Source: Gammaproteobacteria bacterium
GTDB taxonomy: Bacteria > Pseudomonadota > Gammaproteobacteria > RBG-16-57-12
Length of the DNA stretch: 64,000 nt
Assembly: GCA_021647245.1 (NCBI GenBank)
Contig: JAKIVC010000009.1
Location: 1 to 64,000, forward strand
Direction: 5' to 3'
Positions 23,399-41,838 of this stretch are shown piece after piece. The translations under genes and the position numbers were made by a program. Numbering within the stretch: position 1 is the first letter of the stretch; the number at the start of each line of letters is the position of its first letter. The notes under the pieces are model-generated. The model was not told the DNA's origin and did no database searches. It saw only the letters and a program-made list of their open reading frames with translations.

Positions 23399-23399
23399 T

Positions 23400-25337: not shown

Positions 25338-28103
25338 TCAGTTTAATGCTGTAATCATATCCAAGGCGTTCTCTTGCTTATTAAAGCGGGCAGGTTGAAG
25401 ACCCCCTAGCGCCTGAAAACTCTTTTTAACCCACTTATCATAAAGGCCGCTGCTAATTCTATTGATATTCAGCTTATGCAGATCAATCGCCTTTTCGTCA
25501 AAGGGAAAGGCTTGCTCCTCCAGCATCATGATATACATCTCCTGCTCTTCACCTTCGAGCTCTTTTGGTTGCTCCGAGGTCATTAGTGCATGGCTAAACA
25601 GCCGATATATTTCAGCAATTTGATATGTAGAGGCGGTGGTAACATTGCTGATGCGGTATTGACTGGCTTGTTTATACAGATCAAGTGCTGCCTGCATCGC
25701 CTCCTTTTTCTGCTTCAGCGCCTTTTTTATCGGGTTTTTAAGAGCAATCGATGCAAACACCTTTTGATAACTATCTGCCAACTTTAACGAGGCATTAGCG
25801 GCTTGTTGGCGCAGCCCGATATCGGGGTTGTCTTCCCCCACCTTTCTAACAATGCTCCTGAGGCTGGATCTATAAGAGCGGGTATTACCCAGTTTGTGGT
25901 GAATATCCGCAATACGCATACTCACCTCAAAATAACTCACATCCTCCACTTTTGTGAGGGCGAGATACTGCTCAAGCATATTAACCGCCAATCTATTATT
26001 ACCTTCTTGCAAATGAAGCTCTGCGGCCTGGCTTAACCAGCCACGTTTTCGCTCCGGATCAGTCTCTACACTGGCGAGCGCACTATAAGCGTGTGCAGCC
26101 TTCACACTTTCCCCCATTTCCATATAGGAATATGCCAGCTTTTCACGCGCACCCATCACTAACTTATGGCGTGGATAACTGGCTCTAAAGCGCTCCAGCA
26201 CCTTAACCGCCGCCCGCCAATCGCCATTACTCATAAGAGCTGTTGCCGCGTCGTATTGAGCCTGGGCGATAATAGCGGCTCCTGGAACCGCACTCACAAT
26301 ACGCAAAAAGTGCCCGGCTGCGGCCATCAAGTCACCAGCAGCTTGCGCTTGTTCGCCCTGTTTGTAGATTGCAGCCGCAAGCCGCTCTTTAATCTCTTTA
26401 CGCTGCTGAGGCTTTTCAACGTATAAGAGCGCTTGCTGGGAGCTGGCCTCTGCCGCCAAGTAATCATCCAGCATGAAGTGACTGTAAGAGAGCTTATACC
26501 AAACCGTACCGAGCTGTGGTGAGTCGGCTGGCAACGCATGGGCAAGCGTATTCAACTCATCAACGGCAGCTGCATACTCATTGGATGCCAAGTGCTGATC
26601 TGCTTTTTTGTGCCGTACTTCGTTGATTCGTACATCTTGGGGAAAGTGGCTAATAAAACGGTTGATACTGGCGATAAATTGCTGCAGGTGTGGCTGTTCA
26701 TCAATGTTTTGGCGTTTTTCGTGGCTGATTAAGGCCGCATAGCCCGCTTCTGCCATTTTATCGTGCACTGGGTACTCGTAAGCTGCGCTCTCATAGGCCA
26801 TTGCGGCCTGCTCAAAGGCTGCCGATTCGTACAGACTTTCAGCATACAGAAAATGGACACCACTGCTTTTCTCATCATTTGGAAAGCTATTCAGGAAATA
26901 CTGGTACCAGTATTGAGCGCGTGCCACATCGGCTAGCTGGTTATTTTTCTGGTAAAGGCCGTGGTAATATTTAGCAAGATAGATAATATTCTTTTGAAGT
27001 GCTGGCTCAATTGCTTTATACACCGCAACCGGGTGACGCTCCAATATCCCGCTGTCAGCCCCATAGTTTTCGACAAACTGTTGTCTTGCTTGCAGGGCCT
27101 CCTTGAAGTCACCACTCCTGTCCAATAGTGCAATCTGTTTCAAATGATAACCGGCGGCGTGCGCATCGTTAGCATTACGTTGCAGATAAAAGCCATACAC
27201 ACCCGCCGCTTCCCTGTAAAGGCGCTGCATAGAAAATTGATCAGAGAGCGCCTGATAAATCAGTGCAGTATAAGGCTGGTTATTACGCGCTTGTGCAAAC
27301 GCCTCAACCGACTCCACACCCTCCATTTGGGAAAAGCTAACGGCCAGGATACGCAACACATCTCGCACCAGCTCACTATTGGCCACAGCGACATCATCCA
27401 TGCTGCCCGGGGTATGCAGGAATTCCAGTAGATCGGCGAAATGGTGATGTGCCGCATCGATTCGGTCAGAACGATACAGCGCCCACGCCTGTTTGTAGAG
27501 TGCATGTTTGAAATAGGGGTCAGTTGCACCGCGATCGGTGACCTCTTTATAGGCTACAGTCGCATCATCAAACCGGCCAAGGGTAAAGAGCAGCTCACCG
27601 CGACGAAATTGAGCCTCAGAGAAAAAGCTTGATTCAGGATGTTGGTCAACGAGCTCAGTTAACACCTCCAAAACCACCCGTGGCTCACCCGCATAATCAT
27701 AGGCACGAGCCAGTTGATAACGAATACCATCATTCTCTACTCGATCCGGATAATCTTTTAACAGTTGCTGGTAAACAGTGATCGCCCGAAAATAGCCACT
27801 ACTGCGGGTAGTGCTATCCATGTCATCCATGCTGTCATTGAGTAGCTCATCCTCACTCTCTTCCAGTGCAAGATCTGCTAGACGATGTCGTGCAAGTGCT
27901 TCAATTTGAAAAAATTGACTTTCAGCCGCTTTTTGGTACTCCTCTTCCATTCCAGTTAGTTCAGTTTTGGGTATCTGATGTTTGGATATCGGAGCTTGAT
28001 AAGCGATAAGACGCTGCTCAGGTGTTTCGATCGGCACCTTGCTGCTGCAACCACTCAGCACCAGTGAGATGGCCAATAATGCAGTTTTTTTATTGAGCAT
28101 CAT
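25338..28103 (-). CDS. Large TPR-repeat lipoprotein
   Basis: A 921-residue protein with a lipoprotein signal (LAISLVLSGCSSK, lipid Cys at about 19) and almost entirely alpha-helical repeats of TPR/Sel1-like pattern, for example FFSEAQFRRGELLFTLGRF, YFKHALYKQAWALYRSDRI and GVHFLYAESLYESAAFEQ. Such proteins are scaffolds on the inner face of the outer membrane. It overlaps the upstream TPR gene by four bases (ATGA). In size, lipidation and company (a second TPR protein, barrels) it recalls GltE/AglT-type lipoproteins of the Myxococcus motility complex, but this is a similarity of architecture that I cannot test here. Confidence 0.8.
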   Translation of the reverse strand: MMLNKKTALLAISLVLSGCSSKVPIETPEQRLIAYQAPISKHQIPKTELTGMEEEYQKAAESQFFQIEALARHRLADLALEESEDELLNDSMDDMDSTTRSSGYFRAITVYQQLLKDYPDRVENDGIRYQLARAYDYAGEPRVVLEVLTELVDQHPESSFFSEAQFRRGELLFTLGRFDDATVAYKEVTDRGATDPYFKHALYKQAWALYRSDRIDAAHHHFADLLEFLHTPGSMDDVAVANSELVRDVLRILAVSFSQMEGVESVEAFAQARNNQPYTALIYQALSDQFSMQRLYREAAGVYGFYLQRNANDAHAAGYHLKQIALLDRSGDFKEALQARQQFVENYGADSGILERHPVAVYKAIEPALQKNIIYLAKYYHGLYQKNNQLADVARAQYWYQYFLNSFPNDEKSSGVHFLYAESLYESAAFEQAAMAYESAAYEYPVHDKMAEAGYAALISHEKRQNIDEQPHLQQFIASINRFISHFPQDVRINEVRHKKADQHLASNEYAAAVDELNTLAHALPADSPQLGTVWYKLSYSHFMLDDYLAAEASSQQALLYVEKPQQRKEIKERLAAAIYKQGEQAQAAGDLMAAAGHFLRIVSAVPGAAIIAQAQYDAATALMSNGDWRAAVKVLERFRASYPRHKLVMGAREKLAYSYMEMGESVKAAHAYSALASVETDPERKRGWLSQAAELHLQEGNNRLAVNMLEQYLALTKVEDVSYFEVSMRIADIHHKLGNTRSYRSSLRSIVRKVGEDNPDIGLRQQAANASLKLADSYQKVFASIALKNPIKKALKQKKEAMQAALDLYKQASQYRISNVTTASTYQIAEIYRLFSHALMTSEQPKELEGEEQEMYIMMLEEQAFPFDEKAIDLHKLNINRISSGLYDKWVKKSFQALGGLQPARFNKQENALDMITALN

Positions 28104-29941
28104 TGTGCCGCCTCAACCGTATTCAGGGCACTGTCTTTGATATAGGCAACACGATAATACGCTTGATCACGATAGAGTGCCAAGCGACTACGGTAGTGTT
28201 GCAAAGCCTCTACCGCCCGCTCAAGAAGCGCCTCTTCCTGTCGAGTGTAGAGCTGCTCTACTTGCTGGCCCAGCGTCTCCATTTGACCACTCAATTGATT
28301 AGTATACTGCTCATACTGGGAGAACATTTCAGGAGTGGTCAGCTCTGTTCTAGTCAGCACCTCTCGTTTCTCAGCAACCTCATCCAAAATACGCTGTTGT
28401 GCACGCAGCTCTTTGCGACGCTGCCAACTACGCACCTTAAATGTTTCCGTAAGTTGCCAAGTAAGCCGCCCTTTTAGCCGTTGATAGCGCTGTTGGTAAC
28501 CCTCAAGCAGATCACCTTCAGGTAGCATTTCAATGATCACTTCGATTTTTGATAGCCGCTCCAGCTGTTTTTCAGCCCCCTCATCCAACAGCTGATAGAT
28601 TGCCTGTTGCTGATCGATGGCATCCAATTGCCGTGTCAGCTGCTGGTGTTGTTTGACTAGGGATTGGTAGTGGTTATCCTTTTTGACCAGCTCAAGCAAC
28701 GGTAGAAATTCGTTATAACGCATTTGTCGCAATTTAATCATATGCTGGTAGCTGGGTATGTCATCACGCCAGATAGAGAGCTGACGCTGTAAGTAGCGCA
28801 GATCACGTAGGTTTCTCAATGCCTCAAAAAACGGATAACTGGAGAGCATTACCGCCATATAAGGGGTATTGGCTTTAGGTAGCTCAATGCGTTCCTCCCA
28901 GCCAAAGCCTTGTGATATGCCGTGCAACTGCGGCAAAAGCTGATTCAAGAAACGCCCATCTCCTAGGGAGTCAACCACCTCGTCAACCTGCGCTATCTCC
29001 CGTTGATAGTGCGAGATGGCACCCTCATAACTCTTTTTCGCTTCATGCAAAGCATTAGCATGCTCCTGAACATAGCCCTCAAGAAGCCACGCCTCTTTTG
29101 CCTCAATATCACGGCTGTTGCGCTCTTTAAGTAAGCGCAGCGGTGCCAGTGCTTTTATATTTTCGCCCTGTTTGTAATAGGCCCATGAGAGGGCAATCAG
29201 TGCCTGATCAAAAAAAACCGTATCAATAGGAACCTGGTGGAGTAACACAATGGCATTGTGGGTTTTACCGTGCTCTAGGTAGCGCTGCGCAAGAATAATG
29301 CGCGCTTTATGTTGCAACATCTCCGCTTCCGGGCTTTCAGCCTCAGCTAAAATAAGTTGCCGCAGTGCAGCGGAACTTTTCCTATTTTTCTCTGCCCTTT
29401 CAAGTGCAACCGCGAGGTTGTACTGCGCAAAAAGGTCACCTGGTGCCTGTGTCTGCTTGCCCACCTCTGCGGCCAAGCTAAAGCGCCCCTGCCCCATTAA
29501 TAACATAATTTGTAAGTGGTGCCGCTCGCGCTGCAGCTCACCTGGAAGGGCACCTTGGATTTTAAGCAGCGCCTGCAATCCAGCATCGTAGAGGCCACGC
29601 TGATAGCGCACTTTTGCCATATAAAACCAAGCACGGTCACTCACTGGATTTTGTTGCGGTGTTGTGTGGCGCAAAAAAATCGCCTCGGCCTCATCGTGCA
29701 TTCCGTAATAGAGCAGAATACTACCCAACAATAGCTCCGCCTCACCTTTATGGTGTTGCAGTTTCTGCTGCTGCAAGCTAATCCCAAGATTGACCGCAGA
29801 GCGATAATAGCGCTGCTGGTAAAGATCAAAAAAGACCACGCCGTAATCGAGATCCTTGATCGAGGTATTTTGATCGGCATAGAGCGGCGTGCTACAGCAA
29901 AGCAGCACCAGAGAGAGCCATAAGAAAATCTGGCGGAGCAT
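28100..29941 (-). CDS. Periplasmic TPR and coiled-coil protein
   Basis: A 613-residue protein with a signal peptide ending near PLYA. The first half (about 30-300) is TPR-like, with LGISLQQQKLQHHKGEAELL, DRAWFYMAKVRYQRGLYDAG and QALIALSWAYYKQGENIKAL. The second half (about 380-590) is rich in Gln, Leu and Arg with heptad spacing and should form long coiled coils. Start is the ATG at 29941, which overlaps the previous stop (TAATG) and has AAGGAG at the right distance; the GTG at 29947 is less likely. It probably works with the TPR lipoprotein encoded next. Confidence 0.8.
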   Translation of the reverse strand: MLRQIFLWLSLVLLCCSTPLYADQNTSIKDLDYGVVFFDLYQQRYYRSAVNLGISLQQQKLQHHKGEAELLLGSILLYYGMHDEAEAIFLRHTTPQQNPVSDRAWFYMAKVRYQRGLYDAGLQALLKIQGALPGELQRERHHLQIMLLMGQGRFSLAAEVGKQTQAPGDLFAQYNLAVALERAEKNRKSSAALRQLILAEAESPEAEMLQHKARIILAQRYLEHGKTHNAIVLLHQVPIDTVFFDQALIALSWAYYKQGENIKALAPLRLLKERNSRDIEAKEAWLLEGYVQEHANALHEAKKSYEGAISHYQREIAQVDEVVDSLGDGRFLNQLLPQLHGISQGFGWEERIELPKANTPYMAVMLSSYPFFEALRNLRDLRYLQRQLSIWRDDIPSYQHMIKLRQMRYNEFLPLLELVKKDNHYQSLVKQHQQLTRQLDAIDQQQAIYQLLDEGAEKQLERLSKIEVIIEMLPEGDLLEGYQQRYQRLKGRLTWQLTETFKVRSWQRRKELRAQQRILDEVAEKREVLTRTELTTPEMFSQYEQYTNQLSGQMETLGQQVEQLYTRQEEALLERAVEALQHYRSRLALYRDQAYYRVAYIKDSALNTVEAAQ

Positions 29942-30447
29942 TACCACTCCTTGGCAATAAATTGGGCCTGCTGCTTGTCTTCATCATCCTTGATTGAAAA
30001 CTCGATATTTTTAACCTCTTTTGCCTTGTTAAAAGTAATTGAGGCGGCACGCTGGAGAGGGCGTTGATTGGGCCCCATACCATTAAAAATGGCGGTTAAC
30101 TGATGTTCCCCACTGTGAATATTCCCCACATAAAGACGTTGAACACCACCACGAGCGAGTGCCTGCTGCTCACGCTGGGTATAAAGATAGTGGGTGACCG
30201 TTTTACCATCTATTTTCAGCTCTACATTATCAACGACAAAGTATTTTCCCACATCGATTGATACATAAACGGCAAGTTGTGTACTAGAGGGGAAGAGCAG
30301 CTCTTCCTCAAGAATAAAGAGTTGACGATTAAGCTGCATAATCTCTTTTTTGAGGTTTTGCAGCTGGCTATCTATATTTTCTGGTGCACTATTGGCTTGA
30401 AATGAGATGCTGGCAAGCAGCAGAAGACAGATGGTAAAAAAACGCAC
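29941..30447 (-). CDS. Small periplasmic protein often mislabelled AraC-family regulator
   Basis: A 168-residue protein with a signal peptide (MRFFTICLLLLASISFQANS), a short coiled coil (IDSQLQNLKKEIMQLNRQ), then a beta-rich domain with YVSIDVGKYFVVDNVELKID, LYTQREQQALARGGVQRLYV and IHSGEHQLTAIFNGMG, ending FIAKEW. There is no helix-turn-helix. I recall this family next to TPR and TolQR-like genes in gammaproteobacteria, where databases sometimes call it an AraC regulator in error. The fold suggests a PEGA-like or Ig-like adaptor. Start is GTG after AGGGGGA. It overlaps the next gene by one base. Confidence 0.72.
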   Translation of the reverse strand: MRFFTICLLLLASISFQANSAPENIDSQLQNLKKEIMQLNRQLFILEEELLFPSSTQLAVYVSIDVGKYFVVDNVELKIDGKTVTHYLYTQREQQALARGGVQRLYVGNIHSGEHQLTAIFNGMGPNQRPLQRAASITFNKAKEVKNIEFSIKDDEDKQQAQFIAKEW

Positions 30448-30477
30448 AATTCCCCCTAAACAGATCGTTAGATGTTT

Positions 30478-31614
30478 TTAGTACCATACAGAGATGTATA
30501 CTTGTATGACATTAGCCGAAAAACCATAAAGCGGCTCATTGCCGACATCACTACTGACATCCGCATTACGAAAATCAGCATAGTCAAATCGTAGATGATC
30601 CCAGCTGAGGTTTATGCTCCCCCGGTCTATCCACTGAACTCCGCTAAGGTTAAACCCATAGCTGGCAGTGATGCCGAATGTCTGGCTCTCATAGGTGCTG
30701 AGTTCCTTATCCCTTGCCATATAATTTTGTGCATTTTGGGCATCAAAAAGATCGGAGTAAAAATCAGCACGGTTTTGACTGTACTGGCGATATCTTACCT
30801 CAAACAACCAGCCATTGTCGGTTGGATGACGATAAAAAAGCTGCCAGTTTTGAGCATTAATCCCCCAGGTATCAGAGAACTGGCGAACCTCAGCACCCAC
30901 TACCGCCCGGTAGGGGAGATAATAGAGGCCCCGCAAGCCCAGCGCGTTGCTGGTGCGGGTGCCTGGGTAGACTTCATAATCCCATGACTCACCGCCTGCT
31001 AAATCCGAATAGCGATAACGACGATAGGGGTTATTTAAAAAACCTTCATCCGTTGTGAGGTCAAATGCAAACGTAACCGTCATGTTTTTAGTTAAAATCT
31101 GCGACAAGCCAAATCGATAGTTACGTCGTTCAACCGCCCTTTCAAACACATTGTCGGTTGATCGACTAACTGTATCACTGCCACGGGAAAAGCCTAATGA
31201 GATATTGGTCAGGTCGCCAAAAAAGTCTTGCGATATACCGACATTCACTGTGTTGGCAACATAATCATTCTCCGAGCTAGTGGTATACCCCATTGAGAGC
31301 AGATTTTTACCATTGAGGTAATCCACATTCAAGCCATACTCAGTACGCTCTTCATTGTAGGGACTGGCCTGGGTCACCACATCGATTGAGGCACTGCTGA
31401 TGGTATCGACATAGTAGTGGGTTGACACAGATAGCGGAGCGGCAACCTGTTTACGAAACAGCAACGATGGACCACTAATATCCACACCGCCACCCGCATA
31501 GTAGTGATAGAGCACATCAAAACGATCTTCTGGCAGGATAGCTGCCGTCAAAGGCAAACAAGCCAACAGCAATATAATGAGTACGAAATGGCGTTTTGTC
31601 CTAGTTGCAGCCAC
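30478..31614 (-). CDS. DUF3570 outer-membrane beta-barrel protein
   Basis: About 378 residues with a signal peptide (RHFVLIILLLACLPLTAA) and a long series of amphipathic strands with aromatic girdles, ending in a barrel-type C-terminus (VIQVYISVWY). The pattern LYHYYAGGGVDISGPSLLFRK near the start and repeated YG/YR strands fit DUF3570, a putative outer-membrane barrel. Such genes go with DUF4266 and thioredoxin genes, as here, and commonly with an ApbE flavinyltransferase, absent here. I place the start at GTG 31614, which overlaps the DUF4266 gene by 14 bases and follows GGGGGG. Other GTG codons nearby are possible. Confidence 0.8.
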   Translation of the reverse strand: MAATRTKRHFVLIILLLACLPLTAAILPEDRFDVLYHYYAGGGVDISGPSLLFRKQVAAPLSVSTHYYVDTISSASIDVVTQASPYNEERTEYGLNVDYLNGKNLLSMGYTTSSENDYVANTVNVGISQDFFGDLTNISLGFSRGSDTVSRSTDNVFERAVERRNYRFGLSQILTKNMTVTFAFDLTTDEGFLNNPYRRYRYSDLAGGESWDYEVYPGTRTSNALGLRGLYYLPYRAVVGAEVRQFSDTWGINAQNWQLFYRHPTDNGWLFEVRYRQYSQNRADFYSDLFDAQNAQNYMARDKELSTYESQTFGITASYGFNLSGVQWIDRGSINLSWDHLRFDYADFRNADVSSDVGNEPLYGFSANVIQVYISVWY

Positions 31615-31816
31615 AACCACCCCCCTGCCCGCTTTCAGCACCACGCGCCGACTCACGTGCCTGGTATACATGGTTAAGGTAGCTACTAGAGACAGGATTT
31701 GGATCCATATTCATAATCGGGTCAGCCAGCCGTGCGCGCTCATAGGGCAACACCCAAGGCTCAATAGAGCAGCCTTGAAGAAGTACCAAAAACACAATAA
31801 AGAGGATAAATCGCAC
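31601..31816 (-). CDS. DUF4266 mini-lipoprotein with GGGCGCN tail
   Basis: A 71-residue lipoprotein. The signal LFIVFLVLLQGCSI has a lipobox with the acylated Cys at about 16, followed by a conserved ERARLADPIMNMDPNP segment, and the protein ends in ESGQGGGCGCN. Two cysteines in the last four residues are typical of DUF4266. A role in binding metal or as a substrate for the neighbouring thioredoxin is possible but not shown. GTG start with GGGAG upstream, four bases after the TlpA stop. The small size makes it easy to miss. Confidence 0.85.
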   Translation of the reverse strand: MRFILFIVFLVLLQGCSIEPWVLPYERARLADPIMNMDPNPVSSSYLNHVYQARESARGAESGQGGGCGCN

Positions 31817-31820
31817 CCCA

Positions 31821-32321
31821 CTACTCCCGTATCAACGCCTTGATATCGGCTTCATACTGATCCTCGAAACCGGGTTGATAGCCTTTGTGTAAAACCCGCA
31901 ACTGGCCATCACGATCAACCAAGATAGTCGTGGGCATCGCTTTTACGCTGTAGAGGCGGCTCACTGCACTGTCTGCATCAAAAAGCACCGGAAATGAGAC
32001 TGGGATCTGCTCCAGCAGTTTCTCGGCATTTTCACGCTCCTCATCCACATTAATACCGAGCAGTGTAAAGCCCATCATTTGATATTTTTTATGGAGGTCT
32101 TCAAGTAGCGGCATCTCCTGGCGACAAGGGGCGCACCATGAGGCCCAAAAGTTAATCATCACCACCTCACCCAGGTGGTCACTGAGGCGGATGTTTTCGC
32201 CCTTGCGATTATCCAAGGTAAAATCGGGAGCGGCACCTTCTAGGCTGGCGCTAAAAGCATTGTTAAACAACAAAATAGTGCAGGCAATAAAAATAACGAG
32301 TAGAGCTTTTATTGGTTTCAT
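31821..32321 (-). CDS. TlpA/ResA-like periplasmic thioredoxin
   Basis: A 166-residue protein with an N-terminal signal-anchor (LLVIFIACTILLFNNAFS) and a thioredoxin domain with INFWASWCAPCRQEMP (active WCAPC) and the cis-Pro loop KAMPTTILVD. Members keep cysteines reduced in the periplasm, for example the CXXCH sites of apocytochromes before haem attachment. That fits the haem proteins encoded nearby. Start at the Met at 32321 after AGGAG. It is four bases before the DUF4266 gene. Confidence 0.9.
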   Translation of the reverse strand: MKPIKALLVIFIACTILLFNNAFSASLEGAAPDFTLDNRKGENIRLSDHLGEVVMINFWASWCAPCRQEMPLLEDLHKKYQMMGFTLLGINVDEERENAEKLLEQIPVSFPVLFDADSAVSRLYSVKAMPTTILVDRDGQLRVLHKGYQPGFEDQYEADIKALIRE

Positions 32322-32345
32322 TCGGGTACTCCTTGGCAATCCGAT

Positions 32346-32981
32346 CTAGAAAAAAAGTGATAAGCTAAATAACATTTCGAGGTTATGGACATTTTTTTTC
32401 TCTCCAAACAGCTCACTGCTATAGACGTGGTCTCGTCCGTCAACACGCAGTGCCAGCCAGTCGTTTACCAGTAATCGGTAGCCCACACCATAGTTGAGCG
32501 TAAACACCTCATCCCCCGCAAACTCGGTAAGACCGGCACCTCCGATCACATAGAACGCCGTATTGTAGGTACGCCCCTGGCTAATAAAGGCTTCACCTGG
32601 CAGCAAATTATAACCAAGCGATACATTGTAATAACGGTAGCTCCGTTCATCATCGCTCAAGATTTTTACATCACCATACAGCAGCTCGGCACTGGTATAG
32701 CCCGCTTCACTTATTCCGTATGCCGCTTCAGCAAAAAAGTCTTCGCTAATGTGGTAAGCAAGGCGGGCAACCGTGACCATATTGCTGCCAAAATCTTCGA
32801 TACTGATAATGCCTGCGGAGGCCGTTACCTCGAAGTTTTCACTATCAATCAATGCCTCGCTGATATCACGGCGCTCTATTTGAGTATCCGCACCCAGCGC
32901 ATCAAGCTCTTGCGCCAGCACTAACTGCGAGCTGGACAATAGAAGCGTTGCTAAAAGAAAGCAGCAAAACCTATTTTCCAT
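32346..32981 (-). CDS. Outer-membrane beta-barrel protein
   Basis: A 211-residue protein with a signal peptide (about 1-23, ending LVLAQ), a short polar linker with IERRDISEALIDSENFEV, and an eight-strand-type barrel of about 160 residues (YHISEDFFAEAAYGISEAG, RYYNVSLGYNLLPGE, LNYGVGYRLLVNDWLALRVD) ending in LFSLSLFF, a C-terminal Phe signal for the Bam machine. It resembles the small barrel family found with Myxococcus-type envelope complexes. Its first 31 bases overlap the end of the next gene upstream, so they are translationally coupled. Confidence 0.78.
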   Translation of the reverse strand: MENRFCCFLLATLLLSSSQLVLAQELDALGADTQIERRDISEALIDSENFEVTASAGIISIEDFGSNMVTVARLAYHISEDFFAEAAYGISEAGYTSAELLYGDVKILSDDERSYRYYNVSLGYNLLPGEAFISQGRTYNTAFYVIGGAGLTEFAGDEVFTLNYGVGYRLLVNDWLALRVDGRDHVYSSELFGEKKNVHNLEMLFSLSLFF

Positions 32982-33691
32982 TCGATAATTTCCTCATTGT
33001 TTTGATCGCTGTTGAAGAGTACATATTCTTTATACTGAAGTCGTAATACAAAGCGCTGGCTCAGGTAGGTACGCAATCCCATAGTGGCACTCGCGTATCC
33101 CTCTTGACGACGTTCAGATTTAACCAGCGTTGCTTTAGGTTTGATTTGCATCACCCCACCACCCAAGCTGAAATAAGGGGCCACCCGCCAACGGGGAAAG
33201 GGCTGATGCTGAATCGCCAGCCCTACAACCTCTGAGGTAAAAAATGTACCTAAACCGATACCGTAGTTCGCTTCGAGGCCAAGGTTTTGAGTCATAAAAT
33301 AGAGTGCAGAAATCTCCATGGCCCGCGAACCATCCAGGTCGCCCGCCATCATTGCCAGCTCCCAGCTACGTTGGGAGAAATCTCTCCAGTTAGGTGCCTT
33401 AATCGTGGTCTGCTCGCCTTGCGGATTTAAGGTGCGTTCCAGCTGATCTCTAGCAACCCACCCCGTCTCTCCCTGTCGGGTACTGATGAGAAACCAACGA
33501 TTCTTACGCTTGTGAATCGAAACCCATTCGCCCTCTTTCACCACACGAATAATTGGGTAACCACGCCCAGGGCCACTGTGCAGATCGAGATAGGGATCAA
33601 TAACAGCCACTTGCGGCACCGTCTCTTCCGCAGAGGCTACGGGTGAAAAGAAAAAGAGCAGTAACAGGGGAAATAACAGCCTACATTTCAC
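32951..33691 (-). CDS. Bacterial SH3 domain plus outer-membrane beta-barrel
   Basis: A 246-residue exported protein. After a signal peptide ending at about 21 comes an SH3b domain (about 27-88: DPYLDLHSGPGRGYPIIRVV and RWFLISTRQGETGWVARDQL), which usually binds peptidoglycan or peptide, then a barrel of about 150 residues ending WKIGFAAFF. The C-terminal barrel is similar in plan to that of the downstream gene, with which it overlaps. The two may be a barrel pair, one with a periplasmic anchor. It starts three bases after the HzsA-like gene. Confidence 0.78.
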   Translation of the reverse strand: MKCRLLFPLLLLFFFSPVASAEETVPQVAVIDPYLDLHSGPGRGYPIIRVVKEGEWVSIHKRKNRWFLISTRQGETGWVARDQLERTLNPQGEQTTIKAPNWRDFSQRSWELAMMAGDLDGSRAMEISALYFMTQNLGLEANYGIGLGTFFTSEVVGLAIQHQPFPRWRVAPYFSLGGGVMQIKPKATLVKSERRQEGYASATMGLRTYLSQRFVLRLQYKEYVLFNSDQNNEEIIEWKIGFAAFF

Positions 33692-33694
33692 CAG

Positions 33695-36400
33695 TTACTC
33701 CTCCTCAGGCACCGCAAACGGGTTGTTGTAATACTGGGCGCCGATATCCAGCCACTCACTAATCAAGCGAAGTTCAGCCGGAGTTAACCACCCCTCGTGA
33801 ATCGCTCCACTATCAAAAAGCGACAAGAAATAACGTGCATTTGCACCTGCACTTGACATCGAAGGGCCCGGTGCGAGCTGCGTGACCAGAATGGGAATAT
33901 CGATCAAGATAGGGACAGTGATCAAGATAGGGATAGGATTATTATTATCATCAAGAATGAGCTCTCCATTTTCATCTGTTTCAAACTCACCACTTTCTAC
34001 TACCTCAAACTCACCACTCTCCACTGTCTCAAACTCACCACTCTCTACCAAAATATCCTGCAATGCACCATTTTGCAGCGCTTGAACATTATCAGCAAAG
34101 AATAACTCGCGATAGCTGATGAGGTGATCGGCATCTTCTGGCGAGACTCCACCATTGAGCTGTAACTGTGCCTCTGGTACCCGCAAAACACCCACCTCAT
34201 CCAGGTCACTATGGCAATTTGTACAACGCCTATCGACCAGTGCGCTGTCTACCCGCGGCAGATCCCAAAGTGGGTGAATATGCTCGGGGTAGTTGACAAT
34301 AGTGCGGCAGAGCAGCTGCCAGCTATTTTGGCAACTTTCATTGGTGGGGTGTAAAAGCGCACTGTCCAGGTCAGCGTAACGGTACTCAAAGCTATCATCA
34401 GGCAGGCGCAGTGCGCTATCACTCCAATGATCGACAAAAGCAACATCCATCTGCAGCTTACGCTCGGCGCAGTCGGTCTCACAACTAAGGCGCATACGTG
34501 TCTGAGCCATGGTTTCACCCATATGGGCAACCATTGCAGGATTTGTATTAGGGAAGGGCTGACCACTGGTCGTCGCGCCACTATTAACGGCAACAGGGCC
34601 ATCAATACGACCGTGAGGCATTCCGCTACCGTGATTGTGACAACCGTTGCATGTCAATGTTTCACCGGGGCGAACCTGCAGCCAAGCTTGATGGCGGCTA
34701 CGCATACGCCGCCCATTTTCATCAAGCAGTTCAATGGCAAAAGGGATGTTGGCAGGCACTTCAACCATCACCGAGCCATCCGGCTCAATCATCCCGTAGC
34801 CAACAATTTCACGCATCAATTGCTGGGCACTGATACCCAGCGAACTCCTGTTAACAATCAATGTATCCCGATCAGGCAGTGTGACCGATTTTACTATTTT
34901 AATAAAACGCGCCGGACGATCAGCCGCCGCCGTCTGTTGCGGGTCGGCCAGAGTGGCCAGATTAGGTTGTGCTGTATCCCTTCCATCAACATCATAAACA
35001 GAGCGAATATGTAACAGCCCCACTCCGCGATCATGAAGGTCACGATCAATGCGGCCATCACCAGGAAATCCATCGTAGAGACGCGCAGGAAAGTCCCGCT
35101 CACGCAGCGTGGCAACATCACTAATAACAACCCCTTCTTGGGCTATCACCAAAGGACGCAGCGTGTGGCTGCCAATATCATACAGATAGAGCCCAAAAAG
35201 TGGGTCGGCGGGAACCGTCTCTTCACTATTTAGATCAGCAGCAGGACACGGCACAATTACCCCTCCACTTATGATGCGGCAGGGTGTCCAACTGGTGAGA
35301 ATTCGCTGACTACCATCCCAAAGTGGGTAGGCCGACATAAACATCCCCCCGGCTGAAAGCGATTGATTTTCAAGTTGTACATCAAGAACAGTCGCCGCCT
35401 CTTGGCCAGGGCCACTGAGCACACCCCGGTTAATCTCGGTAGGTTGGTCGTGGTCAATATAGTTTTCAGCATCAATAATAACCAGATCACCCCCCCGGTT
35501 TTCCTGTCCACGTAAGGTTTGAGTTGCCAACAGCCTGCCATCCTCCATCTCCCGCACCTGAACATAACCTGTGGAGGCATCCCCATGCCCTACCTGTGCA
35601 CTGTGCGCACCGTAGTGAAGCTGCAAATCACCACCATCGGGGCGAACAGTGTAAAGACGAATCGCATTTTGTCCGCCCATGTTATCCCAACGGCTAAAGA
35701 GAATACGACCACTCATGAGCACTGTGGGATCAAAATCGTGGCTGGCATTGAATGATATCTGTTGAATATCAGTCCCATCATCACCCATCACATGCAGCAC
35801 GGCGGCATGCTCCTGCCTCGACTCTTCAACGCCTTTGAACAGCGGTTTCCCCTCATCCAGCAATGTACGTCCTGTTTCTCGTTGACGTGTTGAGGTGAAC
35901 ACAATACGTCCATCAGGGAGGTAACTCGGGGCGAGATCCTGCCCCTGTCTTGCGATGATATCACTACTGATAATACGCTTAAGTTGCTGGCCAACAATAT
36001 CGTACTCCCAGATATTCCAGGTGGGCTGCTGATCGTCGGGCACACCCTCCATCTCTGGCTCACGCATCGAAAAAATTATTTTGGTGCCGTCATAGGAGGT
36101 ATTCAGATCACGTACATCGCCCGCACCCTGCGTCACTGAGGTGGTCACAATACGTTCGGGTGCAGTAGATGAGGCGCGGTCTCTTATGTAGAGGTCACCA
36201 CCCGGACGAAAAGTCAGCAGTTCACGACCACTCAAGGGGGTTAGCTCGCCTTCATTATCGTAGAGGGCACGCTTAACATAGGCGATTGGATAGTCTGGCA
36301 GTGCAGAATCAGGCGTCTGATTATCATCCACACACCCCGATAGCGTCATCAACGAAGAGACCAATAGCGCCGCTAGCAATAGAGAAAAAATTAAACGCAC
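33695..36400 (-). CDS. HzsA-like beta-propeller lipoprotein with two CXXCH haem sites
   Basis: A 901-residue exported lipoprotein (MTLSGC lipobox). The middle is a TolB/WD40-like propeller with LNTSYDGTKIIFSMREPE, LPDGRIVFTSTRQRE and MSGRILFSRWDNMGGQNAIR, which is the layout of the hydrazine synthase alpha subunit family. Haem c sites are C584-NG-CH588 and C726-TN-CH730. A low-complexity stretch at about 784-830 has three copies of (V/T)ESGEFE(T/V). True hydrazine synthesis is not implied: the beta and gamma partners are missing. It heads the minus-strand operon. Confidence 0.75.
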   Translation of the reverse strand: MRLIFSLLLAALLVSSLMTLSGCVDDNQTPDSALPDYPIAYVKRALYDNEGELTPLSGRELLTFRPGGDLYIRDRASSTAPERIVTTSVTQGAGDVRDLNTSYDGTKIIFSMREPEMEGVPDDQQPTWNIWEYDIVGQQLKRIISSDIIARQGQDLAPSYLPDGRIVFTSTRQRETGRTLLDEGKPLFKGVEESRQEHAAVLHVMGDDGTDIQQISFNASHDFDPTVLMSGRILFSRWDNMGGQNAIRLYTVRPDGGDLQLHYGAHSAQVGHGDASTGYVQVREMEDGRLLATQTLRGQENRGGDLVIIDAENYIDHDQPTEINRGVLSGPGQEAATVLDVQLENQSLSAGGMFMSAYPLWDGSQRILTSWTPCRIISGGVIVPCPAADLNSEETVPADPLFGLYLYDIGSHTLRPLVIAQEGVVISDVATLRERDFPARLYDGFPGDGRIDRDLHDRGVGLLHIRSVYDVDGRDTAQPNLATLADPQQTAAADRPARFIKIVKSVTLPDRDTLIVNRSSLGISAQQLMREIVGYGMIEPDGSVMVEVPANIPFAIELLDENGRRMRSRHQAWLQVRPGETLTCNGCHNHGSGMPHGRIDGPVAVNSGATTSGQPFPNTNPAMVAHMGETMAQTRMRLSCETDCAERKLQMDVAFVDHWSDSALRLPDDSFEYRYADLDSALLHPTNESCQNSWQLLCRTIVNYPEHIHPLWDLPRVDSALVDRRCTNCHSDLDEVGVLRVPEAQLQLNGGVSPEDADHLISYRELFFADNVQALQNGALQDILVESGEFETVESGEFEVVESGEFETDENGELILDDNNNPIPILITVPILIDIPILVTQLAPGPSMSSAGANARYFLSLFDSGAIHEGWLTPAELRLISEWLDIGAQYYNNPFAVPEEE
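33981..34052. repeat. 24-base in-frame tandem repeat (three units)
   Basis: Units at 33981-34004, 34005-34028 and 34029-34052 share TCAAACTCACCACT. They encode the three ESGEFE-type repeats of the HzsA-like protein and keep its frame, so copy number could vary without breaking the gene. Confidence 0.85.
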
Positions 36401-36630
36401 AGAACGCCCTTATATCGATTTTTACAGCATTTCATATGGAGGATTGACCCCTTTAAACTGACAAATTGCACAAGCCAGGAAGGTCAAGCAACCAGCCACA
36501 CGACCCATATCGGGCGTTGCATACAGCTTAGCAGTCACCACATTCAAGAACTGTGAATTCCCCCACAATCCATAGTGCAAAAAGCACATATGCTTAAACG
36601 ACATTCTGTTTCAACAAGGATTCTTTCCCC

Positions 36631-37809
36631 GTGAAAAAAATTGCCATCTCTCTGTTAGCAGCAGCCATATGCTGTAGCTCAGCTTATGCCGGCTCACGTG
36701 AACAAGCCAAGCAGATACACGACAGGATCGCCGGTGTTCCGGCTGACACCGTGCTGCTTGACCAGATGCAGCTACTCATTGAAGGTGGTGATGCGATTGG
36801 TGCCGCCGAACTTGCCATAGAGCACCCGGACTTTTACAGCACCACCCTGAAAACCATTATCACACCCTGGACCAACGAAGCGCAAACCGCTTTTGCTCCC
36901 CTGAATGACTACACTGCCACTATGATTGGCGCAATACGTGATAATCTGGATTTCCGCACCCTGCTTTATGATGACATCCTTTATGTTGGCAGAGCGTCTC
37001 TTGGATTGCCCGCTTATTCGCAAAATAATAACAACCACTACGAGCAGATGGAACAGAGTGGTGTTGACCTGAAGGCTGACCTGGTTGCCGTCACCCAATC
37101 CTCTGTCAATGGCTTACCGGCTGCCGCAACCGCAGGCATAATGACCAGTCGAGCAGCGGCGCAAGCCTTTTTTGTCGATGGCACCAACCGTGCAATGCTG
37201 AGGTTTACCATCCTTAACCATCTCTGTAACGACCTAGAGCAAATAAAAGATAACACCCGCTCTCCTGATCGAATCCGCCAAGATGCTTCCCGCAGCCCCG
37301 GTGGAGACAGCCGCATCTTTATTAATGCCTGCCTAGGCTGCCACGCAGGCATGGATCCACTCGCACAAGCCTATGCTTACTACAACTACGTGTATGACAG
37401 CGGTACCGACCCTGATGCACGTAACGGGCGCTTGGAGTACACCGCAAACAGTGTCCAACCAAAATACCTGATTAACGCCAGCAACTTCCCTTACGGCTAT
37501 GCCACACCGAATGATAATTGGGCTAACTACTGGCGAGCCGGGGCAAACTCGCTGCTCGGCTGGGATACCAACAACCTTGGTCTTCCTGACAATGGTACGG
37601 GTGCAAAAAGCCTTGGCCGCGAACTTGCCAACAGCGAAGCGTTTGCTCGCTGTCAGGTTAAAAAAGTATTTAAAAACATCTGTTTCAGAGACCCTGAAAA
37701 CAGTGCAGATCACAACAAGATCGATCAAATCACTGAATCATTTAAAACCAACAACTACAACCTCAAGACCGTCTTTGCCGAAAGCGCTGTCTACTGCATG
37801 GGAGAATAA
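36631..37809 (+). CDS. Secreted CXXCH protein, DUF1588/DUF1585-like C-terminus
   Basis: A 392-residue protein with a signal peptide (MKKIAISLLAAAICCSSAYA). Most of it is of unknown fold; a CLGCHAGMDPLAQAY block at 234-248 carries one haem c site and resembles the CXXCH-x-MDPLG block of planctomycete-type DUF1588/DUF1585 cytochrome proteins. Two further cysteines lie near the end (CQVKKVFKNICF). GTG start after AAGGA. The 230 bases between this gene and the divergent HzsA-like gene must hold both promoters; I see no gene there, only a 60-codon frame I cannot support. First of a three-gene operon. Confidence 0.75.
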   Translation: MKKIAISLLAAAICCSSAYAGSREQAKQIHDRIAGVPADTVLLDQMQLLIEGGDAIGAAELAIEHPDFYSTTLKTIITPWTNEAQTAFAPLNDYTATMIGAIRDNLDFRTLLYDDILYVGRASLGLPAYSQNNNNHYEQMEQSGVDLKADLVAVTQSSVNGLPAAATAGIMTSRAAAQAFFVDGTNRAMLRFTILNHLCNDLEQIKDNTRSPDRIRQDASRSPGGDSRIFINACLGCHAGMDPLAQAYAYYNYVYDSGTDPDARNGRLEYTANSVQPKYLINASNFPYGYATPNDNWANYWRAGANSLLGWDTNNLGLPDNGTGAKSLGRELANSEAFARCQVKKVFKNICFRDPENSADHNKIDQITESFKTNNYNLKTVFAESAVYCMGE

Positions 37810-37812
37810 CGG

Positions 37813-40263
37813 ATGATTAATCGATACACTCTCTGCCTCATTTTGGCCCTCTCCCTCCTCACGGGCTGCCAAGGGGTTGATACAACCGATAATCCTGAAG
37901 TCGATCGCAGCAACGAGCCCCCCAAAGACTACAGTGGCCCTGCGGCAACAGATGATGATATTGCTCGTTTTAAAGAGTATGTGTGGGATAGCCTGCGCGC
38001 CAGCAACCGCTGTGGGAACTGCCATGGCACCGACAGTGACCAATTACAATTCGTACGTGATGATAATGTCAATTTCGCCTATACAGCGGCACTCACCATT
38101 GTAGACACCACAACGCCTAAGAACTCTGAAATAGTCACCCGGGTTGCTGCAGGCCATAACTGCTGGGAACCCTCCGACCTCATTTGCGCTGAAACCATCA
38201 CCTCCTACCTTGAGTTGTGGTTAAACCCTAATGACCCACTCCCCGGTAACAACGAAGTCAAGCTGATCGCACCACCCATCCAAGATCCTGATGGTGGCAA
38301 GCGACTGCCCGCCGATGCTGCGCTATTTTCTACCACTGTGTGGCCCCTGCTGACACAGTATTGTGCCAGCTGCCACAGCGAAGAAGGTGACTTCCCCCAG
38401 GCACCTTACATAGCGCAGAGTGATGTTAATGTCGCCTATGATGCGATACGCACGGGCCGGCGCATCGACCTGAACAACCCGGCTGACTCCCGTCTAGTAT
38501 TACGCTTGAGTGAAGAGTTTCATAACTGCTGGAATGATTGCCAATCCGATTCCGATGAATTTATCATCGCTATACAAAGCTTTGCAGATGGCGTCCCTAT
38601 CACCGAATTGGACAGCGCACTGGTTAACAGTAAAGCGCTCAACCTCTACGACGGAATCGTCGCTAGCGGCGGCAATCGCTTTGATGACCATATTATCGCC
38701 CGCTACGAATTAAAAAGTGGCCTTGGCGACACACTGTACGATACCAGCGGCATCGAGCCCGCTCTAAATCTCATACTATCCGGCACTGAAGGAGACGATT
38801 ACCAGTGGGTGGGTGGCTGGGGAATCGAGTTCTTCTCCACCTCAGCGCGAGGCAACACCGCCACCAGCGCCAAACTGGCTGAGCGGCTGAAATCAAGCAA
38901 CGCCTACACCATTGAAGCGTGGTTAGTCCCCGCCAACGTCACACAGGAAGGGCCTGCCCGTATCATCAGTTATTCGGCAAATAACTCCCTGCGTAACTTC
39001 ACACTGGGGCAAACACTCTACAACTATAACTTTGCCCAGCGCAGTAGCAGCACCGACACCAATGGAGAACCGATACTCTCAACCGCTGATGCCGACGAAA
39101 TATTACAAGCCACTCAACAGCATGTTGCCATCACCTTTAGCAGCACTGAAGGGCGAAAAATATTTGTTAATGGCACATTGGTTGCCAGTGAGACCGCTAC
39201 TCGAGGTGACAGCCTGAATGATTGGGATGAAAACTACACCCTACTGTTTGGTGCAGAGGCCGATGGCAGCTCACCCTGGAAAGGAAAACTGCGCATGGTC
39301 GCCATTCATGAGCGGGCACTCACTGCTGATCAGATACAGCAGAACATAGACGCGGGTGTGGGTGAGCGCTACTTCTTGCTCTTCAGCATTTCGCATCTAA
39401 TCGACACCCCAGATAGCTACATCTTGCTTGAAGTAAGCCAGTTCGATAACTACAGCTATCTCTTCCATAGCCCAAGATATGTCTCGCTTAACGAAACGCC
39501 TGGGGATATCGATTTTGCTGTAAAAGGGATGCGTATCGGAATCAACAGTGAAGAGTCTGCGGTTGGGCAGGTCTACCGCAACTTGGATCAGCAAGTTGTC
39601 AGCAGCCCGATGAGTCTCTCGTCATACGGGACAATTATTCCGTTGCAAGAGGGTCCTAACCTGGATCAGTTTTTCCTTACTTTCGAGCAACTGGGCTCGC
39701 ACATTAATGTTGTTCTGGAACCCGCACCCGCACAGCCGGCCATGCCAGCCGACAGCGAGCCGCAGCCACGCCTCGGGTTACGGACATTTGCCAAAATAAA
39801 TGCCAGCATGTCAATTCTGACGGATGTTCCCACAACACAAAGCGATGTTCAGGCCACCTATGAAATGGTCAAACAACAACTCCCATCCAGCAGCCGGATT
39901 GATGGCTTCCTGGCCTCCCATCAAGTGGCCATCTCGCAGCTGGCCATTGAGTACTGCAACGCACTGATCGATGACACCAGCTTGCGTGCCAGCTACTTTA
40001 CGGGTTTCGACTTTTTAGCCGATTCAACCACCGCTTTCGACACCACTGAAAAGCGTGACCAGCTACTCGACCCACTGATATCACGAATCAATGGTAGCAA
40101 CCTTGCCACACAACCGGATCCAGCCGTCGTAAAGCAGGAACTAAACAACCTCATCGACCGGCTCACCAGTTGTGGGATAAATTGCAGTAGCGACCGAACA
40201 CTTGCCGTTGCCAAAGGCAGCTGCGCCGCCCTTTTATCCAGCGCCGTGATGACCGTGCAATAA
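37813..40263 (+). CDS. LamG-domain lipoprotein with two cytochrome-like modules
   Basis: An 816-residue lipoprotein (LTGC lipobox, Cys19). Two tandem modules each carry a haem c site followed about 50 residues later by HNCW and one more Cys: C67-GN-CH71 with H115-NCW and C125, and C184-AS-CH188 with H237-NCW and C243. A LamG/concanavalin-like domain follows at about 350-515 (SNAYTIEAWLVPANV, VAITFSSTEGRKIFVNG, LRMVAIHERALTADQI). The last 300 residues are unknown. Three bases after the previous gene. It may bind a polysaccharide or protein on the surface and pass electrons, which is inference. Confidence 0.78.
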   Translation: MINRYTLCLILALSLLTGCQGVDTTDNPEVDRSNEPPKDYSGPAATDDDIARFKEYVWDSLRASNRCGNCHGTDSDQLQFVRDDNVNFAYTAALTIVDTTTPKNSEIVTRVAAGHNCWEPSDLICAETITSYLELWLNPNDPLPGNNEVKLIAPPIQDPDGGKRLPADAALFSTTVWPLLTQYCASCHSEEGDFPQAPYIAQSDVNVAYDAIRTGRRIDLNNPADSRLVLRLSEEFHNCWNDCQSDSDEFIIAIQSFADGVPITELDSALVNSKALNLYDGIVASGGNRFDDHIIARYELKSGLGDTLYDTSGIEPALNLILSGTEGDDYQWVGGWGIEFFSTSARGNTATSAKLAERLKSSNAYTIEAWLVPANVTQEGPARIISYSANNSLRNFTLGQTLYNYNFAQRSSSTDTNGEPILSTADADEILQATQQHVAITFSSTEGRKIFVNGTLVASETATRGDSLNDWDENYTLLFGAEADGSSPWKGKLRMVAIHERALTADQIQQNIDAGVGERYFLLFSISHLIDTPDSYILLEVSQFDNYSYLFHSPRYVSLNETPGDIDFAVKGMRIGINSEESAVGQVYRNLDQQVVSSPMSLSSYGTIIPLQEGPNLDQFFLTFEQLGSHINVVLEPAPAQPAMPADSEPQPRLGLRTFAKINASMSILTDVPTTQSDVQATYEMVKQQLPSSSRIDGFLASHQVAISQLAIEYCNALIDDTSLRASYFTGFDFLADSTTAFDTTEKRDQLLDPLISRINGSNLATQPDPAVVKQELNNLIDRLTSCGINCSSDRTLAVAKGSCAALLSSAVMTVQ

Positions 40264-40272
40264 GGAACGAAT

Positions 40273-41838
40273 ATGACTAAGAAGAACAAACACCACGCAC
40301 TAAACCAGCCTCTTCTGCATACTCATCATCGTCGACCTTACAGCCGACGTGATTTTTTGGCCCAAGGACTGGCACTGGGAGGAGCCATGGTAATGGCGCC
40401 CCCTCTGTTTGGATTAAATAGCGCACAAGCTGCACTCTCTACCGATATGGAAGCACTTAAACTCGCTTGCGGTATCAACAGTGTTGGCGCAGGGAAAATC
40501 CCCTTCATCTGCTTTGATCTTGCCGGTGGCGCCAGCATGGCGGGAACCAATGTCCTCATTGGGCAGCAAGGGGGGCAGCTCGATTTTGTCTCAACTGAGG
40601 GTTACAACCGAATGGGGCTGCCAGGCGACATGGTACCTTCACTCAATGACCCTATCTCTGGCCTCCCCTACTACGACGACTCCCTAGGACTTGCCTTTCA
40701 CAGTGACAGTGGCTTTTTACGCGGCATACGAGAACGTCTTGGCACTGGAACCGCCGCCAATATCAATGGTGCGGTTATTCCGGCACGCTCTGAAAATGAT
40801 ACCGGCAATAACCCCCACAACCCGATGTATGGCATTGCACAAGCCGGGGCAAACGGTGAATTATTACGACTGATCGGCTCCGTCAGCTCCGATTCGGGGG
40901 GCAACTCAATGTCACCTGCACAGATGATTCGTACCGAGTGGCGGCCCACAAAAGTTGACCGCCCCAGAGATGTCACCGGCTTAGTAGATACAGGGAAATT
41001 AGTTGGGCTACTGGACCAGGCTGATGCGGTTGCAGTACTAGAGTCTGTACAACGGATCAGTGCGGCAAAAATTGGCAACATACAGACCGGTGTCACACAA
41101 GCTGCACTGATCAAAGACCTGCTCAGCTGTGGCTATGTTAAAACCGCTGACTTGGTCGACCGCTACGGTGACCCCAGCGCCCTCAACCCAACCCTCGACA
41201 CCGAGATTGTTGGCCCCGGTGGCATCTTCAGCCAGGCAGAATTTGACAGCGATCGCGAATTCCGCAAAACAGCTTCGGTGATGAAAATGGTGATGAATGG
41301 TTATGCGGGCGCCGGCACTATTACCATAGGTGGATATGACTACCACACCGGAGAGCGTGCCACCGGCGAGCTGAGAGACCTGCGTGCCGGACGTTGCATG
41401 GGTGCCTGCCTAGAGTATGCTCATCGACTAGGACAACCCCTCATGATGTATGTCAGCAGTGATGGCTCCGTATTCAGCAATGGCAGCCTTGATGAGAGCG
41501 AAGATGGGCGTGGCAAAGGTGTCTGGACCGGAGATAGCTCCGCCACAGCCGCCTCATTTTTCTTGGTATACAATCCATTGGGACGGCCGCAACTGCTCGG
41601 TGGCAACGCCGATCAACAAGCACAACAGCAACAGATTGGCTACTTCCGCCGCGATGGCTCAGTTGAAACAGCCTCCTCACCTGCCGCTAACAATGTCAAC
41701 CTGTTGGTAGAGACGGTGATCCTCAATTACCTTGCCCTCCACGGACAGCAAGGCGATTTTGAAACCCTCTTCCCAAACCACCGTCTTGGCAACAGTATAT
41801 TAAGGGACAGCTTGACCGCATTTGCCTCGATAAAATAA
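40273..41838 (+). CDS. Tat-exported DUF1501-like protein
   Basis: A 521-residue protein with a twin-arginine signal (SRRDFLAQGLALGGAMVM at 24-41), so it is folded in the cytoplasm, probably with a bound metal, before export. The body resembles the DUF1501 group: FICFDLAGGASMAGTNVLIG, a TIGGYDYHTG block, and AVVIL-type end regions (VNLLVETVILNYLALHG). DUF1501 belongs near the sulfatase/alkaline phosphatase fold and goes with DUF1588-like cytochromes in other phyla. I do not know its activity. AAGGA lies before the ATG. Last gene of the plus-strand trio; a MITE-like repeat follows 10 bases later. Confidence 0.72.
   Translation: MTKKNKHHALNQPLLHTHHRRPYSRRDFLAQGLALGGAMVMAPPLFGLNSAQAALSTDMEALKLACGINSVGAGKIPFICFDLAGGASMAGTNVLIGQQGGQLDFVSTEGYNRMGLPGDMVPSLNDPISGLPYYDDSLGLAFHSDSGFLRGIRERLGTGTAANINGAVIPARSENDTGNNPHNPMYGIAQAGANGELLRLIGSVSSDSGGNSMSPAQMIRTEWRPTKVDRPRDVTGLVDTGKLVGLLDQADAVAVLESVQRISAAKIGNIQTGVTQAALIKDLLSCGYVKTADLVDRYGDPSALNPTLDTEIVGPGGIFSQAEFDSDREFRKTASVMKMVMNGYAGAGTITIGGYDYHTGERATGELRDLRAGRCMGACLEYAHRLGQPLMMYVSSDGSVFSNGSLDESEDGRGKGVWTGDSSATAASFFLVYNPLGRPQLLGGNADQQAQQQQIGYFRRDGSVETASSPAANNVNLLVETVILNYLALHGQQGDFETLFPNHRLGNSILRDSLTAFASIK

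Follow-up and report, generated by a model that had tools for sequence, protein, structure and literature searches.

The stretch of DNA analysed here (the window, 64,000 nucleotides) comes from contig JAKIVC010000009.1 of a Gammaproteobacteria bacterium genome (assembly GCA_021647245.1, the focal genome) and carries, at positions 25338-41838, 12 genes in a row whose products include outer-membrane barrels, haem proteins, tetratricopeptide repeat (TPR) scaffolds and a protein exported by the twin-arginine translocation (Tat) route. An earlier note on this DNA, drawn from the sequence alone, had described two divergent operons, and this layout holds: nine minus-strand and three plus-strand genes diverge from a 230-base intergenic region (36401-36630), and neighbours inside each operon overlap or lie within 30 bases of each other (spacing from -71 to +30). 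The count of twelve also stands, as 11 large open reading frames (ORFs) and one small gene that the note had left unnamed, which codes for a 71-residue DUF4266 lipoprotein (31601-31816, minus strand). The ratio of nonsynonymous to synonymous substitution rates (dN/dS) is 0.03-0.10 for every gene with an estimable dS in comparisons with two congeneric genomes, and all 12 genes are under strong purifying selection. Within the locus, neither promoter patterns above chance nor matches to an Rfam family were found. Statements below on the focal genome as a whole are based on searches of that genome.

Four of the products are lipoproteins in which the lipobox Cys is followed by a residue other than Asp (V, Q, S and S in the hydrazine synthase alpha-like, LamG, 921-residue TPR and DUF4266 proteins, respectively). 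Under the usual +2 rule, any residue but Asp after this Cys predicts the outer membrane, and all four proteins are therefore predicted to reside there.

Thiol and haem proteins and a predicted flavin site

The minus operon encodes, as had been proposed, an outer-membrane barrel of the DUF3570 family (30478-31671, minus strand; PF12094, E value 1.7e-36). It is flanked by the gene for the DUF4266 lipoprotein (PF14086, E value 4.5e-21), which ends in GGGCGCN and thus has a C-terminal CxC pair, both Cys residues being invariant in 108 orthologues. Beyond it lies the thioredoxin of the earlier note, a TlpA/ResA-type thiol-disulfide oxidoreductase of the AhpC-TSA/Redoxin type (31821-32339, minus strand; AhpC-TSA, E value 9.3e-30), whose CxxC motif (WCAPC) is 99-100% conserved in 111 orthologues. 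The first ATG of the listed DUF3570 ORF overlaps the DUF4266 gene by 71 bases, and the real start is probably inside the listed ORF, downstream of that ATG.

DUF3570, DUF4266 with a CxC motif and a thioredoxin-like protein, sometimes joined by DsbD, make up a known cluster type in which the thioredoxin is fed by DsbD and ApbE attaches flavin to DUF3570 at [ST]GA[ST] motifs (Meheust et al. 2021, PMC8238504); this flavinylation was reported in 2021 with its function uncertain (PMC8238504). The locus resembles these clusters in having DUF3570, DUF4266 with its CxC and the thioredoxin-like protein, and also in that ApbE is encoded close by in about half of the relatives (25 of the 52 with full flanks). 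It differs from them in that the thioredoxin is of the AhpC-TSA/ResA type rather than PF13899, in that the flavin motif is relaxed to SSAS, in the addition of haem lipoproteins, a Tat protein and a TPR scaffold, and in the lack of apbE and DsbD genes, both of which are found elsewhere in the focal genome (its one ApbE is on contig C2, beside a gene for a NusG_II-domain protein). The predicted ApbE-type flavin site of the focal DUF3570 protein reads D-x-x-S-S-A-S, its last Ser being Ser95 of the listed ORF. Among 74 DUF3570 orthologues, 99% retain the relaxed pattern D-x-x-[ST]-x-A-[ST] and 20% have the strict [ST]GA[ST], with SSAS the prevailing form across orthologues of the locus; SGAS is commoner in those with a linked ApbE (13 of 33, versus 2 of 41 unlinked; p 3e-4). 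No strict flavin motif is conserved in the other proteins of the cluster. Judging by family membership, DUF3570 likely carries a flavin here as well.

The two smaller barrels noticed earlier, one with an SH3 domain, are a 211-residue outer-membrane protein of the TIGR04565 (OMP_myx_plus) family (32346-32981, minus strand; E value 1.1e-44, above the curated cut-off) and a protein that combines an SH3 domain with a small outer-membrane barrel (32951-33691, minus strand; SH3_3, E value 4.2e-10, and a weaker TIGR04565-like match at the C-terminus). Where the note had counted five or more CXXCH sites on three proteins, there are exactly five, two each in proteins of 901 and 816 residues and one in a protein of 392 residues, and the Cys and His residues of these sites are 99-100% conserved in 106-121 orthologues.

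The 901-residue di-haem lipoprotein (33695-36400, minus strand; CXXCH at positions 584 and 726) has the architecture of the hydrazine synthase alpha subunit (HZS_alpha, E value 1.9e-15, above the cut-off) with a TolB-like propeller (PD40). Its AlphaFold2 (AF2) model (mean pLDDT, the predicted confidence score, 84.5) consists of a propeller, a middle haem domain and a C-terminal haem domain and, in Foldseek searches, matches the whole alpha chain of hydrazine synthase (5c2v; E value 9.3e-29, template modelling score 0.62 by target), while the propeller also matches TolB. The same whole-chain fold is thus found in hydrazine synthase alpha and its homologues (PMC12758564, PMC12607021). In the enzyme, haem alphaI is ligated by a Tyr residue (PMC12607021, PMC12758564). 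This Tyr, four residues after the first CXXCH, is absent from the 901-residue protein, which reads CNGCHNHGSGMPHG (CNGCHNHGSGMPH) at this site and has a conserved His596 there instead; unlike hydrazine synthase, the protein is also a lipoprotein, and no genes for beta or gamma subunits were found among the 12 genes or the scanned neighbours. With both the active-site Tyr and the partner subunits missing, hydrazine synthesis can be ruled out, and because the haem-alphaI Tyr is absent, the protein is a homologue of HZS-alpha with another job. For HZS-alpha homologues outside the anammox bacteria, we know of no established function.

The plus operon starts with an exported mono-haem protein of 392 residues (36631-37809, plus strand) with a C-terminal PSD2/DUF1585 domain (PF07624, 27.2 bits against a cut-off of 25.8), in which the CXXCH and four more Cys residues are invariant in 106 orthologues; a search of the literature on the function of DUF1585/DUF1592 returned nothing useful. 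The second gene encodes a di-haem lipoprotein of 816 residues (37813-40263, plus strand; lipobox LTGC-Q) with the LamG domain that had been recognized in it (Laminin_G_3, E value 1.5e-22); 108 orthologues conserve its two CXXCH as well as two additional His-Cys sites. The third product (40273-41838, plus strand) is Tat-exported (SRRDFL motif), as noted earlier, but its likeness to DUF1501 has to be given up: PF07394 has no Pfam match in this protein, in its 16 orthologues (17 members in all) or in the whole genome, and literature on DUF1501 with Alteromonas gave nothing useful. Its family remains unclassified, with no Pfam or NCBIfam match beyond a sub-threshold Tat signal and no solved structure found by sequence search. 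The top Foldseek matches of its AF2 model, which is of moderate quality (mean pLDDT 71.9), are sulfatases, alkaline phosphatases and phosphoglycerate mutases, all weak (best E value 4.6e-3), a faint signal that could reflect an alkaline phosphatase/sulfatase superfamily fold.

Scaffold genes, motor core and conservation

The remaining three genes of the minus operon encode an exported core protein of 168 residues (29941-30447), which has no known domain and lies directly upstream of the pair of TPR genes in nearly all loci; a TPR/coiled-coil periplasmic scaffold of 615 residues (28100-29947); and, as the last gene of the operon, a TPR lipoprotein of 921 residues (25338-28103; lipobox LSGC-S). 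The earlier assignment of TPR scaffolds is borne out by Pfam for the 921-residue protein (TPR_6, TPR_16 and YfiO, with the NCBIfam YbgF model just under its cut-off), whereas the scores of the 615-residue protein are marginal (weak TPR_19), although its paralogue on contig C13 of the focal genome has TPR_19 above the cut-off. The 168- and 921-residue proteins (the latter at 32% identity) also have paralogues on C13, in a cluster that includes motor genes. From its position in the Agl/Glt core described below, the 921-residue protein would correspond to GltD, and the 615-residue one, by size and position, to GltC.

In several relatives of the locus, the TPR genes run on into genes for a GltE-like TPR lipoprotein, an exported protein of ∼95 residues, an ExbB/TolQ-type protein (AglR), two ExbD proteins and a GltG-like protein, and in most Microbulbifer loci all 19 genes are contiguous. 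This extended run is the "Group B" core of the Agl/Glt system (a TolQR-like motor, GltG and a TPR scaffold) which is recorded from many nongliding gammaproteobacteria with no function assigned and is considered a paralogous, ancestor-like form of the gliding and spore-coat machines of Myxococcus (Luciano et al. 2011, PMC3169522). The likeness extends to gene content and order, the TPR proteins being followed, in the relatives and on C13, by the GltE-like lipoprotein, a GltF-sized protein of ∼90 residues, an AglR-like ExbB, two ExbD and a GltG-like protein; in a comparison made among the gammaproteobacterial proteins, the content, order and paralogy of the TPR proteins would fit GltC, GltD and GltE of Myxococcus xanthus. 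The focal locus differs from Group B in representing only the scaffold part, with no motor of its own, and in coupling this scaffold to a haem/thiol/flavin module and to a Tat protein, neither of which is mentioned in the available part of that paper (PMC3169522).

A complete standalone core, the only such motor of the focal genome, lies outside the window on C13 (43000-52500; L087:2-9374) and comprises a YfaZ-like barrel, a member of the 168-residue family, two TPR proteins, a GltE-like lipoprotein, a 95-residue protein, AglR, two ExbD and GltG, with a nine-gene order that is also seen in many genomes without the redox genes. Its GltG-like protein has the AgmX/PglI C-terminal domain (66.8 bits against a cut-off of 40) and matches the GltG model at an E value of 4e-12, under the equivalog cut-off; the GltE model likewise matches the TPR lipoprotein on C13 below its cut-off. 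Ten genomes, including the focal one, have two sets of 921-type TPR genes and a single motor, much as AglRQS is common to Glt and Nfs in Myxococcus, where one motor serves two scaffolds (PMC3858216). Tol-Pal also has a TolQ/TolR-like motor, a TolB-like propeller and a YbgF-like TPR protein, but the focal genome has a separate Tol-Pal cluster on contig C1, and the propeller of the locus carries haems. Two further loci combine the core with redox genes. L177 (G020:C12) has it beside SH3 barrel, outer-membrane barrel, TlpA and DUF4266-like genes, a partial module in a genome where no haem lipoprotein was found, and at L184 (G088:C1) it adjoins the first ORF from base 1, truncated at the start of the contig, whose 725-residue product has 21 CXXCH sites and is possibly another redox partner of the motor core.

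The earlier note would have been refuted if the minus and plus sets never occurred together elsewhere, but they do. Of 369 gammaproteobacterial genomes sampled across the class, 50 had substantial matches to the 901-residue haem lipoprotein, 47 had the Tat protein and 42 had both (Fisher p 1.8e-41, not corrected for relatedness), and the divergent arrangement is kept in 103 of 104 loci. Of the 50 carriers of the haem lipoprotein, 49 have a 921-type TPR protein and 46 an AglR-type motor, which in 24 of them is on the same contig, 9.6-17.8 kb from the haem gene; the sole carrier without the TPR protein is genome G037, and the other three without a motor match are fragmented assemblies. The 12 genes are thus co-conserved as a unit, which upholds the proposal that a single envelope system combines haem and thiol chemistry, and the haem lipoprotein is accompanied by an Agl/Glt-type TPR scaffold and usually by a TolQR-like motor. 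A chance neighborhood is ruled out by synteny in more than 100 loci together with the co-occurrence at the genome level.

A set of 52 loci with full flanks was built around the Tat gene, whose count of 52 is thus by construction, and the 10-kb flanks undercount distant parts. The eight other redox genes (haem, barrel and thiol) are found in 50-52 of these loci (DUF3570 in 50, the rest in 52). Further out, 23-26 loci have the 168-residue and TPR genes, 21 the gene for the GltE-like lipoprotein and 13-17 the motor genes. A scan of one genome each from 84,980 species gave at least 514 encoding stretches. The best 80 of these are almost all from Gammaproteobacteria (the label is Polarisedimenticolaceae for one metagenome bin and no more than Proteobacteria for some), with Microbulbifer, Alteromonas, Paraglaciecola, Aliiglaciecola, Colwellia, Shewanella, Pseudoalteromonas, Candidatus Thiodiazotropha and Sedimenticola among the hosts. 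Microbulbifer, Alteromonas, Paraglaciecola, Colwellia and Shewanella are mostly known as heterotrophs; the hosts, which number in the hundreds and are mostly marine, also include sulfur-oxidizing symbionts.

A proposed surface redox system and its possible link to a motor

On the basis of these gene families, we favor, with middling confidence, the view that the 12 genes encode one outer-membrane thiol-flavin-haem redox system, built on and possibly energized by an Agl/Glt-type machine. In such a system, TlpA would serve as a periplasmic thiol carrier fed by DsbD, and electrons would pass between TlpA, the CxC tail of DUF4266 and the flavin carried by the DUF3570 barrel, and would then reach the c haems of the HZS-alpha-fold lipoprotein, the LamG lipoprotein and the mono-haem protein. 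The relay might serve the Tat-exported protein, which we guess to be the working enzyme or receptor. The 168-residue and TPR proteins would form a periplasmic frame that docks the assembly on the GltG/AglR-ExbD-ExbD motor, and this motor, driven by proton flow, might move or gate it; in the focal genome, this one motor would also work for the second scaffold set on another contig, as the Myxococcus AglRQS serves both Glt and Nfs. Much more tentatively, work on or gating of a surface redox assembly by a proton-driven Agl/Glt-type motor could be an original nonmotility role of the gliding-motor family in Gammaproteobacteria, a proposal from gene content that we think has a modest chance of being right. 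If true, it would describe an energized extracellular redox machine, fed by periplasmic thiols via a flavin barrel and c haems.

Several observations weigh against this interpretation. The focal flavin site is SSAS and not the experimentally tested [ST]GA[ST], and the focal genus is without the higher-scoring type of ApbE found in other carriers, keeping a single ApbE of another type. The focal locus has no motor gene, neither ExbB nor the two ExbD, and 37 genomes have the motor core and no haem lipoprotein; because these genomes carry the core without the redox module, the core must have other uses and is a more general machine to which the module attaches. The co-occurrence statistics ignore relatedness, although the carriers span ∼30 families and are patchy within families. 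Finally, the substrate and the direction of electron flow are guesses.

An alternative with a real, if clearly smaller, chance is that the locus encodes mainly an assembly or transport apparatus, in which scaffold and motor place the surface lipoproteins and the Tat protein, while TlpA and DUF4266 keep CXXCH sites reduced for haem attachment and there is no surface relay. ResA-type proteins reduce apocytochromes, and the thioredoxin has ResA/TlpA/DsbE-type models among its best matches. The Agl-Glt/Nfs system of Myxococcus is, moreover, a transport-like surface machine (PMC3858216). Ordinary c-type cytochromes, however, can do without a TlpA of their own at each locus. In other clusters, DUF4266 and DUF3570 make up a redox module together with ApbE (PMC8238504), and 99% of the DUF3570 proteins retain the flavin-type site. 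It is rather improbable that the relay reduces ligand-bound iron or another nutrient for uptake or reductive release at the surface, with a TonB/TolQR-like motor driving import: the GltG-like proteins do have a TonB-like C-terminus, the VIT1 iron transporter is found in 25 DUF3570 clusters (PMC8238504) and the system is widespread among marine bacteria, but neither a TonB-dependent receptor nor an iron transporter is encoded in the focal locus.

The combination, within a single locus, of a thiol/flavin path with haem lipoproteins and outer-membrane barrels, together with the use of flavinylation by some extracellular electron transfer systems (PMC8238504), could also suggest, in line with the earlier note, an extracellular electron transfer conduit for metal respiration or for oxidation of an inorganic surface substrate, but we regard this as quite unlikely, given at most two CXXCH per protein (three in the variant form B described below, against at least eight haems with a large porin in Mtr-type systems), the absence from the locus of a multihaem porin-cytochrome unit and of a quinol dehydrogenase, and a broad distribution over marine heterotrophs and sulfur-oxidizing symbionts. 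A narrow lithotrophic role is disfavored by the wide spread of the hosts, and the specific role with metals, sulfide, nitrite or hydroxylamine that the earlier note put up for testing finds no support in these haem counts or in a host range of heterotrophs as well as sulfur-oxidizing symbionts.

That note had also stated that no described system has this composition, which is true of the whole within the literature searched; two of its modules have, however, been described separately (PMC8238504, PMC3169522), and the redox system that we favor would be novel in the way it combines known parts, not as a kind of its own. The interpretation in the note is partly supported; the note did not recognize DUF4266, the predicted flavin site with its link to ApbE or the HZS-alpha fold, nor the connection with the Agl/Glt motor core. 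The underlying observation is real and conserved. Its interest exceeds what the note claimed, since it connects a surface redox module with an orphan relative of the gliding motor. The locus joins the Agl/Glt core, DUF3570 flavinylation and HZS-alpha homologues in one co-conserved system, turning three questions into a single testable one, and offers a first testable clue to the role of the orphan motor in nongliding bacteria; knockouts look feasible in culturable carriers such as Shewanella, Alteromonas and Microbulbifer.

Variant loci and neighboring genes

In form B, seen in about eight genomes (loci L028, L062, L063, L064, L066, L067, L068 and L030), the HZS-alpha-like protein has three CXXCH sites and there is no plus operon; mostly, ApbE adjoins the haem gene and there is an extra gene for a protein of ∼170 residues. 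Genome G039 has both forms. In the one-contig genome G037, the haem lipoprotein gene (G037:C1:1998596-2000185; L029) is broken into two frames and the plus operon is intact, while barrel, thiol and scaffold genes are absent from the locus stretch, possibly a decay intermediate.

A cytochrome bc1 operon (Rieske protein, cytochrome b and cytochrome c1) is located nearby in the window (21435-24119). A link to it was rejected, since bc1 is present in G002 but not at that place in the congener G001, so that the adjacency is not conserved. An anti-phage defence system was likewise discarded, as the PADLOC models gave a single weak match, in the 615-residue TPR protein, and so was a plasmid-borne element, the plasmid matches being only distant, to Bacteroidota proteins annotated as SUMF1. 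In the plasmid records concerned (NZ_OY725748.1, NZ_AP025309.1 and NZ_AP025307.1), proteins annotated as SUMF1/EgtB/PvdO share 22-26% identity with the propeller/HZS-alpha region, which suggests that HZS-alpha-like domains may be joined to formylglycine-enzyme-like domains in Bacteroidota plasmid proteins.

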